From: a virus | Length of the DNA: 31,059 nucleotides | IMG/VR virus record: IMGVR_UViG_3300044678_000583 | Span: 1 to 31,059 of that record | Reading direction: 5' to 3' (one strand) | Shown: piece after piece, positions 5,101 through 24,788 of the stretch | Position numbering within the stretch: position 1 is the stretch's first letter | Layout of the letters: each line of letters begins with the position of its first letter | Translations under genes and position numbers: made by a program | Notes under the pieces: generated by a model | What the model saw: only the letters and a program-made list of their open reading frames with translations | Database searches by the model: none | Told to the model about the DNA's origin: nothing

Positions 5101-7887
5101 TTATTTGTTTGTTAATGCGTACCATTCTGTTCCATCACATACTAAACAAGCTGTTCCGTATTGATTATTTATTGTATAATTTGCTACCCCGTCAATCAAC
5201 TGGTCTGCGTATGCGTCAATGGTGAGTGTTCCCTGCGCACCTTTTTTTACAATCCAATATAATTTGTTGGATGCGGTTGATGCGTCAGGTAATGTCAATG
5301 TGTGGTTGCCTGTTCCAAGCGAAATAATTATATCGTCATGTAAGTCAATATTATAATTGTTAGGTGGGAAAGCAAAACGATTTGTGCCGAAATTATTTGC
5401 TGTCATCAACTGCCCTTGCAGCCATACTTCGTCACTACCTACGCTTTGCACACCTTCACCAATTACGATGCTTCTTTCACTATCGGGAAGGAAGGTAGTG
5501 CCACTTGTGGCAAAGGCAGCATTTGCCCTGCCGTAGTTTGTCACCGCATCGCCCGATACAATCGCATCGCCCACCGCATTGAAATCACCAAGCGAAAACC
5601 CTTTGTTTTGGATTACCTTACCGGGAAGGTTGCCGCCACCAATCGGGTCTTTTTCGGTTTCCTGTGTGTCACCGCCACCACCACTTGACTGCGTACCGCC
5701 ACCGCCTACGCTTCCGGTTGTTGCTGTGAATGTAGGCCCTGTTTTCAGAAACAAAAACTCACAGATATTTACCGATGGGTTAATAGGGTCATAGTCCTCA
5801 ATTTTGTTTAACCGGAAGTAATTGCCATCAAAGAAATACAGGTCACGGAATGACAGCTTTTCCATATCAGCCGGGGTAAGGTAGAAACTGCCCTTTACAA
5901 TCTTGCTGTCCTTGTCTGTGATTTCATTGATGTACTTCCGCCAATATGCATTGTAAAGGTTGTTATTGGTTACGGGTGTACCCGACTGCAAACCGATATA
6001 TCTGGGCAGTCCGAAATTGATGTCGGTTGTGGAAGCCAACGGATCATCCAAGTGGCCCATGTATGGGTATTTGGTTTTTGTGGTGAACGGTGGAACGATT
6101 AAAGATGTACGACTGCCTTCATACGCATAGTATGTTCCACATGTTTTTACCTTGTATTGCAATATGCGAAGGTTTCCTGACTTCGTGCTTTCCGATGGTG
6201 TTTGAATTTCAGGCAGATATTTGTCAAGTTCGTTTTCAGGTTTTACAATCAGGGTCGGGACAAAGCCAACTTCGATTTTCTTTTCATCCTTTACAAAATC
6301 ATTTTCAACAACTATCTGTCTGTCACCATAAATCCTTGCATAATCCTCTTTGTAATTCTTATTGCCGTCATCGTCACCCTCTTTGTAGGTAAATAAATAT
6401 TTACCCGCTTCGAGTTCACCCATGGGAGTGATTTCAAGTGGCTGTGATAAATCCCGTTTTTCTGTCCAATCCCTAACCGTATTGAGCAGAAATTCCTCAC
6501 GGGGTAAAACCACAAGTGTCTTGTCAATTTCGGTAGCTTCAACATATAAATTAAACATCGTGAAAAGCCACTTCATAAATTCACGCTGCTTGGTTTCTGT
6601 GCCTGTAAAAAAGCCCGTGAAATCCATCGTGTCACCAATCCCATAAACACCATCCACAAGCACATTAAAAAACTTGCTGTTTGCTAATTGAACATAGGGG
6701 TCGGAACCTGAAACCGATGTATTTGTTGTTGTGTCCGTTTCAATTATTTCTATCAGGCGGACTTCCACAACATCGTTAACATTCAGCTTGATATTTGAAA
6801 AGTAAAGGGTAGAGTCAATTATTACTTTTGTTCCTGCCCCGTTTATTGTATAATTTCTTGTGTAGGCAGATTTTATTCTTTTTCCATTTACATACAAACC
6901 CCATCCAAATTCATACGTAATATAAGTAGATGGGTCGTAAGGGTATTCCGCATTGCAATAAAAAGCAAAGTCATAACGCTGACCTGAATAGGCATTTGTG
7001 AACTTGCTTGTTCCTGTGTTGTACTGGTTTGATGGGTCGCTTATTTCAGTTGGAAAAGTAATTGTCGTGGTATTGTAAGGAAAATTGATTGTTTGCCCCG
7101 ATGATGACTTTGCTTCAAACTGCCTGTTCTGCACCTGCGTTTCCGATAGGAATGGCATCCGTGAAGGACATGGAACCACCAATCTTTTGAACTGCGCTGT
7201 GTTAAAAAAAGAACCACTGCTGTATGTGTACCCTGCTCCGCTGAATATTTTATCTACTACCGTTTTGGCATAGATATAGGGTGTCATAGCATTCAGGTCT
7301 AATTTGCTATAATCGGCATACGTACCGGGGTCAACCCATCCGTAAACATAACCCTCGCCAATAGGTGCGCCACCACTGAAATTCACATACCCACTGCTGT
7401 TTTTAATTATGGAAGTATCCCAGCTATTAAAAATATTTGTAGTATTGAAAACGTGATTAAACTCCGTAAAGTCCAAATCCTCTAATTTGGCATCGGAAAT
7501 CTTTGCAAACAGGTCAGCCAATTCCCCGTGCATGGAACACTCGTACTCGATTTGATTCAGGTCGTTAACCTTAATCGACAACAAACGGATAAAACCTTCT
7601 ATTTGCGTTACTTCATCCACCGTCAGCAGCGCATCGGCTTTCAGGTTTGGGTTGAAATCAGGGCTGAAATTTGTGGATGTGGTGTTGCGGATGGAAAGGT
7701 TTAAATCAAACAAGTGGGTGAATAGCTTGTTGTTGGTCTTTGTACCCGGCAAGGTGAATGTCTTTGTCCAATCCGATGACCTGCTTTCGGGTTCACGGAT
7801 GTCGGCAATGGATTTGTTTATCTGTATTCCAAAATCGGTGGGCAGGTCAACGCTATACCCACCGCATACAAGTCTTACGTTGTTCAT
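5101..7887 (-). CDS. Large tail-tip/baseplate hub-like protein (928 aa)
   Basis: The second-largest structural protein type of the window, 928 residues. The N-terminus (LVCGGYSVDLPTDFGIQINKS then REPESRSSDWTKTFTLPGTKTNN) matches a tail protein family common in Bacteroidota siphoviruses. The middle is beta-rich and aromatic. Residues about 725-760 are a Gly/Thr/Ser linker with GGGG runs. The last 160 residues form a separate beta-rich module (pattern GTGNHTLTLPDASTASNK, ending in GTEWYALTNK) like those at the tips of phage fibres, and could contact the host surface. It overlaps the preceding gene by 4 bases (ATGA). The hub role is inferred from size and order. Confidence 0.65.
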   Translation of the reverse strand: MNNVRLVCGGYSVDLPTDFGIQINKSIADIREPESRSSDWTKTFTLPGTKTNNKLFTHLFDLNLSIRNTTSTNFSPDFNPNLKADALLTVDEVTQIEGFIRLLSIKVNDLNQIEYECSMHGELADLFAKISDAKLEDLDFTEFNHVFNTTNIFNSWDTSIIKNSSGYVNFSGGAPIGEGYVYGWVDPGTYADYSKLDLNAMTPYIYAKTVVDKIFSGAGYTYSSGSFFNTAQFKRLVVPCPSRMPFLSETQVQNRQFEAKSSSGQTINFPYNTTTITFPTEISDPSNQYNTGTSKFTNAYSGQRYDFAFYCNAEYPYDPSTYITYEFGWGLYVNGKRIKSAYTRNYTINGAGTKVIIDSTLYFSNIKLNVNDVVEVRLIEIIETDTTTNTSVSGSDPYVQLANSKFFNVLVDGVYGIGDTMDFTGFFTGTETKQREFMKWLFTMFNLYVEATEIDKTLVVLPREEFLLNTVRDWTEKRDLSQPLEITPMGELEAGKYLFTYKEGDDDGNKNYKEDYARIYGDRQIVVENDFVKDEKKIEVGFVPTLIVKPENELDKYLPEIQTPSESTKSGNLRILQYKVKTCGTYYAYEGSRTSLIVPPFTTKTKYPYMGHLDDPLASTTDINFGLPRYIGLQSGTPVTNNNLYNAYWRKYINEITDKDSKIVKGSFYLTPADMEKLSFRDLYFFDGNYFRLNKIEDYDPINPSVNICEFLFLKTGPTFTATTGSVGGGGTQSSGGGGDTQETEKDPIGGGNLPGKVIQNKGFSLGDFNAVGDAIVSGDAVTNYGRANAAFATSGTTFLPDSERSIVIGEGVQSVGSDEVWLQGQLMTANNFGTNRFAFPPNNYNIDLHDDIIISLGTGNHTLTLPDASTASNKLYWIVKKGAQGTLTIDAYADQLIDGVANYTINNQYGTACLVCDGTEWYALTNK

Positions 7888-17131: not shown

Positions 17132-17132
17132 T

Positions 17133-17163
17133 TTGGAAATCTAAAATCTTTGTTTTATAATTG
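17133..17163 (+). promoter_or_regulatory. Promoter for the leader RNA, TTG-N20-TATAATTG
   Basis: TTG at 17133-17135, 20-base spacer, TATAATTG at 17156-17163 (one mismatch to TAnnTTTG). It starts right after the stop of the first early gene. Expected RNA start is about 17168-17170. Confidence 0.6.
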
Positions 17164-17167
17164 CATA

Positions 17168-17299
17168 TCGGAATAACAGGACTGACTCCCCTGCCGAGAA
17201 ACGGAACAAATGACAACGAAAATAATTAACACCCACGCAAGTAAAGAGACGGCATTGTTCCAGCCGGAGTCAACTCTTGAAAGTGTGGGTGTTTTTTTT
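17168..17299 (+). ncRNA. Structured leader RNA / small RNA with terminal terminator
   Basis: About 130 bases between a promoter and the next ATG. Two nested 7-bp stems can form: TGACTCC (17183-17189) with GGAGTCA (17266-17272), and GGAACAA (17203-17209) with TTGTTCC (17255-17261). AACACCCAC (17228-17236), inside their loop, pairs with GTGGGTGTT (17285-17293), which runs straight into a T tract. Forming all stems needs a pseudoknot; otherwise they compete. The T tract ends one base before the ATG at 17300. This is the layout of a transcription attenuator or riboswitch, or of a small RNA with its own terminator. No known class recognised. Confidence 0.6.
17285..17299 (+). terminator. Terminator distal arm and T tract before ATG 17300
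   Basis: GTGGGTGTT, the 3' arm of a 9-bp stem whose 5' arm is at 17228-17236, followed by an unbroken run of T to 17299. Between the arms a smaller hairpin (CGGC with GCCG) can fold. It would end transcripts just before the following gene unless an alternative fold wins. Confidence 0.6.
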
Positions 17300-17509
17300 A
17301 TGAACATTTACAAACCAACACCACTACCAGTCGCATATTGTGACGAGCAAATCGCAGAACTTGAACTGCGCAAAGAGTATGAAAATTACAGGCGAGAAAA
17401 CAAGATGCTTACGTTATTACAATGTGAGTACCTTTGGATGAAACTTGACCTGCAAATAATCTATTATCAGCAATGCAAAAAATTAACCCTTAAACAAATA
17501 TCAAAATGA
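17300..17509 (+). CDS. Small protein behind the structured leader (69 aa)
   Basis: A 69-residue protein (MNIYKPTPLPVAYCDEQIAELELRKEYENYRRENK) with a charged central helix and an aromatic C-terminal part. I chose ATG 17300 because the same frame upstream, back to 17210, is occupied by the leader RNA and its T tract. No family recognised. Its stop overlaps the next ATG (ATGA). Expression probably depends on read-through of the terminator. Confidence 0.65.
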   Translation: MNIYKPTPLPVAYCDEQIAELELRKEYENYRRENKMLTLLQCEYLWMKLDLQIIYYQQCKKLTLKQISK

Positions 17510-17715: not shown

Positions 17716-18358
17716 GATACACAGGTGCATGATGGATAACCCATTGTACCATTCGGAACCTTTTAACAGAACTCATGCATGGATTGACCTGTTATTGTTA
17801 GCCAATAGCAATGATAACTTTTTTTACAAGCGTGGCATCCGTGTCAATATTCAGCGTGGACAAATCGGCCACGATGCTGATACTTTGGCAAAAAGATGGA
17901 AGTGGTCAAGAGGTAAGGTGGAAAGATACTTGACTATGCTTGAAAGTGATGGCATGATAGTAAGGCAAAAAAGCAACGTAACTACCTTAATATCAATATG
18001 TAAGTACGATGATTATCAGGCAAACGATAAAGCAAATAGTAAGGCAAATGATAAAGCAAACGGACACCAAACAGTAAAGCAAACGGACACTAACAAGAAT
18101 GTTAAGAATGATAAGAATGAAAAGAATGTAGAGAATATAATACCTACGCTTGAAGAATTTTGCGAATACGGTATGAAAGGACTGAAACCCGGTTATCGTT
18201 ACCCTATTGAAGCCAAATACAATCAATGGGTGGAAGCTGGGTGGGTTGATGGTCACGGCAAAAAGATTAAGAACTGGAAAACCAAACTTGCAAACACCAT
18301 CCCATTTTTAAAACCTATGGAAGTTGAACAGGCGAAGGCCATAAAATATTTAGAATGA
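17696..18358 (+). CDS. Replication initiator / DnaD-like protein (220 aa)
   Basis: The N-terminal 100 residues match the phage replisome-organiser winged-helix domain: WIKIHRCMMDNPLY, AWIDLLLLANSND, RGQIGHDADTLAKRWKWSRGKVERYLTMLESDGMIVRQ, then ISICKYDDYQ. Residues about 108-150 are a low-complexity linker of Asn, Lys, Asp and Ala whose DNA consists of two tandem-repeat arrays. The C-terminal part (PTLEEFCEYG, YNQWVEAGW, KIKNWKTKLANTIPFL) resembles the helicase-loading part of DnaD/O proteins. It directly precedes and overlaps the helicase gene, so it likely binds the origin and loads that helicase, as lambda O and P do together. Confidence 0.75.
   Translation: MSNGWIKIHRCMMDNPLYHSEPFNRTHAWIDLLLLANSNDNFFYKRGIRVNIQRGQIGHDADTLAKRWKWSRGKVERYLTMLESDGMIVRQKSNVTTLISICKYDDYQANDKANSKANDKANGHQTVKQTDTNKNVKNDKNEKNVENIIPTLEEFCEYGMKGLKPGYRYPIEAKYNQWVEAGWVDGHGKKIKNWKTKLANTIPFLKPMEVEQAKAIKYLE
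18019..18093 (+). repeat. Tandem iteron-like repeats, 12-bp type, inside initiator gene
   Basis: Five units in a row: GGCAAACGATAA, AGCAAATAGTAA and GGCAAATGATAA (12 bp each), then a 23-bp and a 16-bp unit both starting AGCAAACGGACAC. Core [AG]GCAAA[CT]. They encode the variable linker of the initiator. In lambda, origin iterons lie inside the initiator gene O; this has the same layout. Confidence 0.6.
18095..18139 (+). repeat. Five 9-bp AT-rich direct repeats inside initiator gene
   Basis: AAGAATGTT, AAGAATGAT, AAGAATGAA, AAGAATGTA and GAGAATATA follow one another without gaps, right after the 12-bp array. A/T-rich short repeats beside iterons fit an unwinding region; they may also be just a Lys/Asn-rich linker. 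Confidence 0.6.
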
Positions 18359-19590
18359 TAGAGCAACAAATACTCGGAACGTGGTTGCAAGGTAAGCAGC
18401 TTGACCTGACCGCAACGGTACGCAGCGAATGGTTCACCGTACCAAAATACCGCACCCTATGTTTGACCATTCAGGCAATGTACCTGAACAACGAGCATAT
18501 TGACAACGTGGCGGTGGTAATGAAGCACCGTGACATGGCAATGGACATCGCAGGGTTAAATAATTACTACACAGGTGAAAGCATTACTCGGTTGGTTTCA
18601 ATGTTGCATCAGGAATACATCCGCAAAATACTGACTATTGACTTGACAAAAATTGTCAATGACCTGACAAACGGAAGTGAAATAATGCAGTCCATGTCGG
18701 AAGTTCAAAAAACTATTGATGAAATACAACTGACCGAAAGCGGACAAGCTATTGACTTGATTACTCTACTCGGTGACCGCTTCGACAACTTGGAAAAGCG
18801 AAGCAAGTCCGAAATCAAAACCATTGGATTGCCCACCGGGTTTACAAAATTGGATAAATATATTGGCGGTTTTGTTCCCGGCGAAAATGTGGTGGTGGCA
18901 GGTCGGCCCGGAATGGGTAAGACAGCATTCGCAGTCAGCATCGGAATTGCTCATGCAAAGCTTGGTGGCAGGGTTATAATGTTCAGCATGGAGATGAGCA
19001 AAGAACAACTCGCAGACCGCATACTTTCATCCCTTGGTCGGGTGGATAACCTGAAAGTGCGTAACGCTGATGTCAATGAATTTGAATTGGAAAACATTGC
19101 ACGTGAATTACTGCTCATTGATTACAAATTTCAAATCGAAGACAGCACAATGCTCGACATAGCTCAAATCAAAACCCGAATTAAGACCATGAAAGTAAAG
19201 CCCACGCTGGTAATCATTGACTACATGCAGTTGGTTAAAAGCACAGGGGGTAAAAATCGGGAGCAAGAAATAGCCAACATCAGTAGGCAATGCAAACTGA
19301 TTGCGAAAGAATGCGGATGTACCGTGATGCCATTGTCACAATTGAACAGGGGAACAGAGGAAGGAAACAGCCGACCAAAATTGGCAAACCTTCGTGAGTC
19401 TGGGGCGATAGAACAGGATGCGGACACCGTGTTATTCCCATACCGCCCTGATTATTATGAAGCACAGAAGAATGGCGGCAATCCACCTGAACTTGAAGAT
19501 GCTGAACTCATTATCAGCAAGTGCAGAAACGGGATGACAGGAACGCTACAATGTAATTTTATGGGTAAAACCGTTGAATACATTTTTTAA
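18355..19590 (+). CDS. dnaB: Replicative DNA helicase, DnaB type (411 aa)
   Basis: The hexameric helicase that unwinds the replication fork. The N-terminal domain is short (residues 1-130, MIEQQILGTWLQ to TIDEIQLTESG). The RecA-like domain shows GLPTGFTKLDKYIGGFVPGE, Walker A GRPGMGKT at 183-190, MFSMEMSKEQLADR at 209-222, Walker B LVIIDYMQLV at 285-294 and LSQLNRGTE at 327-335, then LRESGAIEQDAD with the expected Arg and Glu. All key residues are present. It is shorter than bacterial DnaB (about 450-470) through its reduced N-terminus. Its ATG overlaps the initiator stop (ATGA). Confidence 0.93.
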   Translation: MIEQQILGTWLQGKQLDLTATVRSEWFTVPKYRTLCLTIQAMYLNNEHIDNVAVVMKHRDMAMDIAGLNNYYTGESITRLVSMLHQEYIRKILTIDLTKIVNDLTNGSEIMQSMSEVQKTIDEIQLTESGQAIDLITLLGDRFDNLEKRSKSEIKTIGLPTGFTKLDKYIGGFVPGENVVVAGRPGMGKTAFAVSIGIAHAKLGGRVIMFSMEMSKEQLADRILSSLGRVDNLKVRNADVNEFELENIARELLLIDYKFQIEDSTMLDIAQIKTRIKTMKVKPTLVIIDYMQLVKSTGGKNREQEIANISRQCKLIAKECGCTVMPLSQLNRGTEEGNSRPKLANLRESGAIEQDADTVLFPYRPDYYEAQKNGGNPPELEDAELIISKCRNGMTGTLQCNFMGKTVEYIF

Positions 19591-19617: not shown

Positions 19618-20073
19618 ATGAGAATAAAAATCAAAGCACCACAGCGCAACAGCAGGACAACATTTCGTCAAAGCGAAATCGACAGACTCAAAGAAATCAT
19701 CTACCATCAGGGCATACGCATCAATGAACTTGAAAGAATGCTCAAAATAGAAAACATAGACAAGGATGAGCAGGTAATCAAAGCCGCACACCTTGCTATC
19801 CGTTCAGTATTCAGCGAATATCGGCCCGAATGGGTGGTAATCAGCACGCGTAAACGCGATGTGGTAGAACTTCGCCAGATGTTTCAATGGCTGTGCCGCA
19901 ATAAAACCTCTCTTTCGTTGCAAAAAATCGGGCAAATATGCGGTGGCCGTGACCATAGCACCGTGATAAATAGCTGCCGGGTTGTGGACAACCTGATGAG
20001 TTACGACAAACGCTATGCACGAAACCTTGAAAGCGTTAAAAATAAGTTCGAAGAATTTGCAGAACAGATATGA
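19618..20073 (+). CDS. Stand-alone DnaA domain IV (DNA-binding) protein (151 aa)
   Basis: Residues about 52-145 match DnaA domain IV: VISTRKRDVVELRQMFQWLC (basic loop and helix) then LQKIGQICGGRDHSTVINSC, where GGRDHSTV at 109-116 is the DnaA-box recognition signature. There is no AAA+ ATPase domain; the N-terminal 50 residues are basic and then coiled-coil-like. It should bind DnaA boxes without being able to assemble an ATP-driven filament, so it could load or block initiation at the box at 16841 or displace host DnaA. It has its own promoter and overlaps the next gene by 4 bases. Confidence 0.85.
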   Translation: MRIKIKAPQRNSRTTFRQSEIDRLKEIIYHQGIRINELERMLKIENIDKDEQVIKAAHLAIRSVFSEYRPEWVVISTRKRDVVELRQMFQWLCRNKTSLSLQKIGQICGGRDHSTVINSCRVVDNLMSYDKRYARNLESVKNKFEEFAEQI

Positions 20074-20810
20074 ATGTAATAAATTTCAGCGGTGGCAGAA
20101 CTTCTGCATACATGACAAAACGATTGATTGATGAAGGATTGCAAGATTACATCGTCACGTTTCAAAATACAGGAAAAGAAATGCCGCAGACACTTGAATT
20201 CATAAATGAATGTGATGTACGCTGGGGGTTAAATTTGGTATGGCTTGAATATCGCAAACCTGCAACATTTGTGGTTGTGGATTATGCAACTGCATCTCGC
20301 AATGGACAGCCATTCCAAGAACTTTTAGAACAAAGGCCAAGTGGCATTCCAAATATGCAGTTTAGGTTTTGCACAACTGAACTAAAAATAAACACACTCA
20401 AACGCTATCTGCAAAGTATTGGCATAACTGATTACACATCATTTAACGGCATTCGATACGATGAGCCACGCAGATGGTCAAAGGTTCAAGATGATGTTGA
20501 ATTGCCGTTGGTTAAATGGAAAACTACAAAGCAGGATGTTTTAGATTGGTGGAAAAAACAAGATTTTGATTTGCAAGTCAATGAGCCATACGGGAATTGT
20601 GATTGCTGCTTCCTAAAAGGAAAAGGAAAACTTGCAATTATAGCCAAAGAAAAACCTGAATTATTTGATTGGTGGATTGGCAATGAAATGCAAAGCGGAC
20701 ACCAATGGAAAAAAGAAATTAGCTATGAAGCATTGCGGTCACGTTCTCAAAATCAAATCGGCCTTTGGGATGGTGACAAAAGTTTTGAATGTTTTTGCAA
20801 CATTGATTGA
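20070..20810 (+). CDS. PAPS-reductase-like PP-loop protein (246 aa)
   Basis: An N-type ATP pyrophosphatase fold of the phosphoadenosine phosphosulfate reductase family: PP-loop FSGGRTSAYM at residues 6-15, FQNTGKEMPQTLEF at 31-44, RFCTTELKINTLKRYL at 99-114 and a Cys cluster NCDCCFLKGKGKL at 176-188, with two more Cys in the last six residues (CFCN). The Cys set could hold an iron-sulfur cluster. Such proteins are frequent in phages and are related to DndC, the phosphorothioation enzyme, and to sulfate reduction enzymes; the true reaction in phages is unknown. Either nucleotide or DNA chemistry, or a counter-defence role, would fit its place among replication genes. Confidence 0.8.
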   Translation: MNVINFSGGRTSAYMTKRLIDEGLQDYIVTFQNTGKEMPQTLEFINECDVRWGLNLVWLEYRKPATFVVVDYATASRNGQPFQELLEQRPSGIPNMQFRFCTTELKINTLKRYLQSIGITDYTSFNGIRYDEPRRWSKVQDDVELPLVKWKTTKQDVLDWWKKQDFDLQVNEPYGNCDCCFLKGKGKLAIIAKEKPELFDWWIGNEMQSGHQWKKEISYEALRSRSQNQIGLWDGDKSFECFCNID

Positions 20811-24464: not shown

Positions 24465-24727
24465 TGTTTCACACGCCTATTTGCCTTGAAGTAATCGCAG
24501 GGGATGAAATGGAAGATGCCCTTTATGAAATGGGTATTGCACCTTCCGAAGTTGATTTGTACCAAGAGCCTACATTCCCTGTCTGTTTGTACAAAATTGA
24601 TTGCATGATGCCCGACAATCGCAGCACACCAAAAAAGCCGCTGACTATTATCGTGTGCGGTGAGTTGACTTACATTGTCAAGTTTTCAATAGAGCATTTG
24701 ATTAACTTGGTGGATGTCCACCGATAG
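24464..24727 (+). CDS. Hypothetical protein, last early gene (87 aa)
   Basis: An 87-residue acidic protein (ICLEVIAGDEMEDALYEMGIAPSEVDLY, then TIIVCGELTYIVKFSIEHLINLV) with a mixed alpha-beta pattern. Its ATG shares a base with the phosphoesterase stop (TAATG). No family recognised. It ends the rightward block just before the convergent hairpins. Confidence 0.65.
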   Translation: MFHTPICLEVIAGDEMEDALYEMGIAPSEVDLYQEPTFPVCLYKIDCMMPDNRSTPKKPLTIIVCGELTYIVKFSIEHLINLVDVHR

Positions 24728-24739
24728 TTTTTACGCAAA

Positions 24740-24776
24740 GCATTGAGTGATTTTGCTCAATGCAATGAGCAATTTT
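24740..24776. terminator. Convergent terminator with two alternative hairpins
   Basis: Between two converging gene ends. Hairpin 1: GCATTGAG (24740-24747) with CTCAATGC (24756-24763), better placed for leftward RNA (a TTT follows). Hairpin 2: TTGCTCA (24753-24759) with TGAGCAA (24766-24772), followed by TTTT, suited to rightward RNA. They share bases and cannot form together. Confidence 0.6.
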
Positions 24777-24788
24777 CGCAAATTTTGC

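Follow-up and report, generated by a model that had tools for sequence, protein, structure and literature searches.

Compact pseudoknots such as the preQ1 and SAM-II riboswitches are able to control a start codon or a terminator. The glutamine riboswitch and the Downstream-peptide RNAs are leaders of phages and bacteria that contain a loop-E-type motif, the latter together with a small downstream open reading frame (ORF). To our knowledge, translation in Bacteroidota, which operates without a Shine-Dalgarno sequence, and its coupling to transcription have been little studied, and almost nothing is known of early-gene control in Bacteroidota phages. We also know of no conserved pseudoknot in the pyrBI leader of E. 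coli. In that leader, according to the account of Roland et al. (1988) given in PMC4824070, an ORF crosses an intrinsic terminator, and a ribosome close behind the polymerase blocks closure of the hairpin; pause sites set the coupling (PMC4824070). A terminator inside a coding sequence is also found in BrfA, where it gives rise to a non-stop mRNA and rescue is carried out by the truncated protein itself (PMC6881298).

Here we analyzed a window of 31,059 nucleotides, positions 1 to 31,059 of the IMG/VR virus record IMGVR_UViG_3300044678_000583, which contains a structured leader RNA of ~132 nt at 17167–17299 (plus strand, as are all elements of the RNA described below). Its 5′ end was placed by promoter spacing and its 3′ end by a T tract, and 56 distinct homologues were found. 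As in pyrBI, the leader ORF passes through a predicted intrinsic terminator; as sequence features, the terminator between promoter and operon (helix P3 plus a T-rich tail) is present in all 56 homologues, and an ORF extends across it in 56 of 56. Here, however, a new RNA fold would carry the attenuator logic. The terminator lies within a conserved double pseudoknot, which extends over the region of the start codon as well, and, unlike for pyrBI, neither a pause nor a nucleotide signal was detected in the leader RNA. An amino-acid attenuator of the trp/his type was rejected, since the leader peptide is not conserved and no covarying alternative stem was found. BrfA and ArfA share with this locus the terminator inside a coding sequence, but here the RNA fold is conserved and the peptide is not; a non-stop gene of their type was rejected because the peptide preceding the terminator differs completely between lineages. 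Compared with the preQ1 and SAM-II riboswitches, the leader RNA is larger, contains two long-range pseudoknots, has the start codon within the fold, and gives no Rfam match. From the glutamine riboswitch and the Downstream-peptide RNAs it differs in helix order, and it matches neither family in Rfam.

Searches of the window and of ten loci with divergent homologues against Rfam 15 yielded no match at the gathering score, in line with an earlier note, made from the DNA sequence of the window, that had recognized no known RNA class. The best sub-threshold match was TEG147, with 25 bits against a cut-off of 56.1. No description of the RNA was found in the open-access literature, a narrower basis than all published papers would give. 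The RNA appears to be previously undescribed and matches no Rfam family.

Relatives, promoter, and operon

Relatives were first gathered via the DnaB-like helicase encoded downstream (18355–19590), which retrieved 63 viral loci; the leader RNA was detected by BLAST in ~46 of them. The set was enlarged by DNA patterns and by a covariance model of the nested helices only (R1), and finally comprised 57 representative loci, which carry 56 distinct RNAs. These homologues are kin, so that a count of 56 of 56 does not represent 56 independent events. Every true member resides on an IMG/VR contig, that is, in an uncultured phage, and a pattern search of 84,980 bacterial and archaeal genomes revealed no member of the family. 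Seven pattern matches in bacterial genomes were ascribed to chance: they came from unrelated taxa, bore no likeness to the RNA, and a covariance search of those loci recovered none of the seven. Weak covariance-model matches in L202, L238, L158, and L184 (20–23 bits) were likewise judged to be chance, and inspection of L202 and L238 revealed none of the helices of the RNA.

In the annotated phage collection, the locus had no DNA match, and the helicase and the terminase gave matches below 60% identity only. A 928-aa structural protein, probably of the tail (5101–7887, minus strand), had no match in 50,697 phage records. The annotated phages thus include no close cultured relative of this lineage. 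The RNA family appears to be spread over a large group of uncultured phages, whose hosts are probably Bacteroidota, as judged from the type of promoter.

This promoter (17132–17163) consists of TTTG at 17132–17135, a spacer of 20 nucleotides, and TATAATTG at 17156–17163, and is of the Bacteroidota type, for which the primary-sigma consensus is TTTG-N19/20-TAnnTTTG (PMC6847099 and PMC7366714). The relatives have the motif TTTG-N19/20-TAnn(A/T)T(T/C)G, which is matched by 46 of 48 distinct upstream sequences, including one with TTG-N22; the remaining two contain the −7 box only. The downstream box ends ~5 nt before the CGG of helix P1 (9 nt in L089 and L130), and with this spacing the RNA would begin at P1. 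A promoter of the form TTG-N20-box, as claimed before for the window, is therefore present, and its distance to P1 is nearly fixed across the relatives. L055 contains an extra gene (798–1547, ParB-like by eye) directly upstream of the promoter, and L037, L040, and L053 have additional DNA inserted after the upstream ORF and ahead of the RNA; promoter and RNA are intact in these loci.

The RNA always heads the early replication operon. It is followed by a small variable gene, a DnaD-like helicase loader, and then a DnaB-like or primase-helicase-like helicase. The small gene (17300–17509, plus strand, ~70 aa) belongs to no known family, with no match in Pfam or PHROGs; it is swapped for variants in the relatives and absent in L264. 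Even where relatives have exchanged replication genes, the RNA keeps its place at the operon head. Compared with the window, the replication helicase is replaced within 0.5–3 kb after the RNA in L161, L181, L154, L264, and L267 (DnaB-like, primase-helicase-like, or loader-type ATPase), the loader-type ATPase occupying the helicase position in L264.

Fold of the leader RNA

Comparison of the homologues indicates that the leader is a double-pseudoknotted RNA of ~132 nt, in which six helices coexist and which contains a loop-E-like internal loop. P1 (17168–17197) is a two-part hairpin formed by TCGG 17168–17171 with CCGA 17194–17197 and by CAGG 17177–17180 with CCTG 17190–17193; its internal loop is AATAA and its apical loop spans 17181–17189. 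The pair 17179–17191 changes from G-C to C-G on both sides in 12 of the 56 homologues, and the other P1 pairs are almost invariant. Within the P1 loop lies the 5′ arm of PK-A (17183–17189), which pairs with 17266–17272. Four of the seven PK-A pairs show two-sided changes, each pair is standard in 41 of 41 sequences of a fixed-offset alignment, and two pairs reached E = 0.017 under the tree null. P2 connects 17203–17209 with 17255–17261 in the loop of P5. Its arms are swapped jointly by lineage (GGAAC/GTTCC, CCAAG/CTTGG, CAGAG/CTCTG, GGAAG/CTTCC), and two pairs gave E < 0.02 under the same null. As isolated duplexes, PK-A and P2 have computed energies of −9.9 and −7.3 kcal/mol, respectively.

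The terminator stem P3 (17228–17238 with 17283–17293; 11 bp) encloses P4 and P5. Seven of its 11 pairs changed on both sides, with 100% standard pairing in 56 sequences. Between P3 and P4, AAGTA at 17239–17243 faces GAAA at 17279–17282; of the 41 distinct structural sequences, 39 have AAGTA or GAGTA and 39 have GAAA. This internal loop resembles the loop-E (bulged-G) motif and may be assigned to it. P4 (17244–17248 with 17274–17278) shows two-sided changes in all five pairs, and P5 (17251–17265; GGC 17251–17253 with GCC 17263–17265), whose loop holds the 3′ arm of P2, in one pair (C-G to U-A or A-U); both helices are 100% standard.

The folding energy of the RNA differs only mildly from that of shuffled sequences (z = −2.1; 4 of 200 shuffles are equally stable). 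Since thermodynamics by itself gives weak support, the verdict on the fold rests on the relatives. In a model-based alignment of the 56 distinct homologues, whose covariance model did not include PK-A, 99.0% of 1890 base-pair cells were standard, compared to 33–47% when the partners were slid by 1–3 columns, and none of 500 shuffles attained any observed pairing measure. For the 41 distinct structural sequences and 39 pairs, 1538 of 1599 cells were Watson-Crick and 49 were G-U, and two-sided changes occurred in 24 of the 39 pairs. Swapping arms between lineages abolished pairing in P2, PK-A, P4, and P3 (0 of 2000 permutations each). The MAFFT alignment had misplaced P2 and some P4 gaps; P2 was therefore placed relative to the 3′ strand of P5 and the AUG, and verified by arm swapping. 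Eight pairs, two each in PK-A, P2, P3, and P4, reached E < 0.05 in a simplified R-scape-type test, which is not R-scape itself and takes its tree from the same columns; outside the proposed helices, this tree-based test gave no significant covarying pair. The strands are asymmetric, with 49 G-U cells against 6 A-C cells. G-U pairs thus occur on the plus strand and hardly on the minus strand, which argues that the plus-strand RNA is the functional molecule.

These results bear on several claims of the earlier note. Its three stems, corresponding to PK-A, P2, and the 17228–17236/17285–17293 portion of P3, are exact and 100% complementary, but they gave an incomplete picture: P3 extends to 11 bp, and P1, P4, and P5 had been missed. 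Covariation among related phages, which it had proposed as a check, was indeed detected in the eight pairs named above. The note had left the choice between a pseudoknot and a switch. Covariation favors the pseudoknot, whereas the competing folds are unsupported, as the stems covary at once and coexist. The competing-fold model was rejected on the grounds that the pairs passing the tree test all belong to a single compatible fold; with all supported pairs in one such fold, there is no comparative sign of fold switching.

The 3′ arm of P3 and the T tract (17283–17299) form a predicted intrinsic terminator, in which the P3-P4-P5 stem precedes a T-rich tail. Across the 56 homologues, the P3-P4-P5 module has a minimum free energy (MFE) of −24.8 to −33.2 kcal/mol and is followed by 6–9 T per 10 bases; in some lineages, the T tract is broken (TTTTGTATTT, TTTTACTTTT). 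The site escaped a simple terminator scan, as that scan permits loops of at most 8 nt. From stem and tail we infer that the outer helix P3, together with the T-rich tract, doubles as an intrinsic terminator.

Start codon and reading frame

In 56 of 56 homologues, an ATG is located right after the 5′ arm of P2 and before the arm of P3, where the RNA is least conserved. The ATG of the window, at 17210, opens a leader ORF of 99 aa (17210–17509, plus strand), which crosses the terminator and joins the next gene in frame. The frame of this ATG is free of stops across the whole RNA in 56 of 56 homologues, whereas the other two frames are open in 9 and 0 of 56, respectively, and it continues into the next gene in 52 of 56. 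In L264, L305, L311, and L043, and also in L267, the leader ORF stops soon after the next start and overlaps the start of the next gene. L043 (1496–1635) has T9 in place of T8, which shifts the leader ORF out of the frame of the next gene; this may not be a sequencing error, as three loci share that core.

The linker, the P5 loop, and the P4/P5 junction vary in length by lineage, and frameshifting indels are compensated. The leader peptides are entirely different between lineages (MTTKIINTHASK..., MTKHNQKDLTQVKGG..., MKKELYQTPYTSTMRL...), and the GAAAGTGTGGG motif is translated as ESVG in most homologues and as RKVWG in L181, that is, in two frames. Thus, given that the encoded peptides are unrelated, the frame is kept and not the peptide. 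We consider it probable that the first gene of the replication operon begins 90 nt upstream of its obvious ATG. According to computed folding of the nascent RNA up to ~17254, the surroundings of the AUG are ~0.9 unpaired.

A T tract directly before ATG 17300 had been reported previously, and T8 at 17292–17299 is indeed followed by this ATG. A terminator one base before an ORF is therefore nominally right, but the conserved start codon is the one at 17210, inside the RNA. With a start codon and an open frame within it, the leader is overlapped by coding sequence and is not a 5′ untranslated region ahead of an ORF. The proposal of a phage riboregulator at the entry to the replication genes agrees with the structured leader, the integrated terminator, and the position at the operon head; it had overlooked the internal start codon with its frame and the loop-E-like motif.

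Proposed mechanism and rival explanations

We give an even chance to the reading that the RNA is a cis-acting leader of the early replication operon, which would couple start-codon masking to termination such that prompt ribosome loading leads to readthrough. The helices, the promoter motif, the start codon, the open frame, and the operon position are directly supported; the co-transcriptional order, the ribosome as effector, and termination are what we infer from them. Transcription would begin at P1. While the polymerase is between ~17215 and ~17254, AUG 17210 and the A-rich stretch that follows would be single-stranded, and a ribosome could load. The next 45 nt would deliver all 3′ arms, namely those of P2, PK-A, P4, and P3 with the U tract. 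If no ribosome arrived in time, pairing of the P5 loop with the P2 arm that immediately precedes the AUG would be joined by PK-A, which would lock P1 onto the P4/P5 stack, and by P3, which would close over the U tract; this one fold would thereby hide the start codon and end transcription. A ribosome translating through P3-P5 would instead hold the terminator open, allowing the polymerase to continue, and would reach the next gene via the in-frame fusion or the overlapping reading frames.

This mechanism is supported by the single double-pseudoknot fold with its covariation, the near-fixed promoter, and the stable stem with T-rich tail in all lineages. It is further supported by the ATG in 56 of 56 homologues, the frame kept via compensated indels, the AUG that is predicted to be unpaired until 17254, and the retention of the RNA as genes change. 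With the E. coli tR2 terminator, placement in the first 100 bp of a coding region gave efficient termination, because the first ribosome seldom catches up in time (PMC4824070). Since such early-coding terminators are usually not suppressed (PMC4824070), a pause or a slow polymerase would be needed here.

The conserved loops (AAYAA and AAGTA/GAAA) suggest that the fold does not serve as a barrier alone but may have a binding partner; as conserved unpaired motifs, they qualify the RNA as a candidate aptamer only. The RNA could accordingly be a sensor, acting as a riboswitch aptamer or as an operator bound by a protein of the phage or its host; binding would stabilize the pseudoknots, mask the AUG, and complete the terminator, for example when a replication protein or a nucleotide feeds back on the operon. 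The compact knotted fold, the position in the early replication operon, and the conservation of unpaired AAYAA, AAGTA, and GAAA while structural columns diverge by up to 45% would all suit such a sensor. We nevertheless regard it as rather unlikely: there is no candidate ligand, the exchange of downstream protein families while the RNA stays speaks against an autoregulator encoded there, and a ligand alone leaves the kept-open frame unexplained. The frame is equally unexplained, together with the ATG in 56 of 56, if the promoter and terminator serve to produce a stable, non-coding RNA of ~132 nt that acts elsewhere in trans, with readthrough feeding the operon at a low level. The RNA does have its own promoter, a compact fold, and a terminator, and it is retained while downstream genes are exchanged. 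Its constant position at the operon head would, however, have no explanation, and apart from the variable AUG linker it has no long unpaired segment; we consider a trans-acting small RNA improbable.

Two further readings take the reading frame or the genomic position as their starting point. Transcripts that end at the T tract would contain an AUG but no stop codon and might trap ribosomes for rescue, so that the operon senses rescue capacity. A terminator within a stop-less ORF in all homologues is what such a device requires, and BrfA offers a precedent with an internal terminator (PMC6881298). BrfA and ArfA act via the truncated protein, though, and the truncated peptide is not conserved here; we consider a non-stop device very improbable. 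Hardly any credence is given to the view that the element acts as DNA, as an origin or a single-strand initiation site: it does lie at the head of the replication genes, but the G-U pairs are one-stranded (49 versus 6), a promoter sits at a near-fixed distance, and the reading frame is conserved.

Returning to the cis-acting leader, we tentatively propose, with somewhat less than even confidence, that it represents a new class of RNA regulator. One double pseudoknot would hold the start codon, the first 30 codons, and the terminator; one folding event would stop both the start of translation and transcription; selection would act on the frame and not on the peptide; and the RNA might also be a riboswitch for an infection signal or for nucleotide supply. 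With start codon, coding stretch, and terminator in one knot, the RNA would offer a clean test of ribosome loading versus folding versus polymerase. The analysis also corrects the gene annotation, in that the start of the first replication-operon gene is probably moved upstream, and the structure of an RNA family absent from Rfam is now well supported in phages with Bacteroidota-type promoters.

Further observations concern the DNA downstream of the RNA. Right after the DnaB-like helicase, the window encodes a protein with the DnaA domain IV helix-turn-helix only (19618–20073, plus strand; Pfam Bac_DnaA_C, 61 bits), possibly a phage origin-binding protein; several relatives also carry a protein like it. 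The early operon further includes a PAPS-reductase-like protein (20070–20810, plus strand; 26.8 bits, above the cut-off). At 24729–24782, just past an ORF ending at 24727 and beside an endolysin-like gene on the minus strand, a 22-nt imperfect tandem repeat is present in 2.5 copies.
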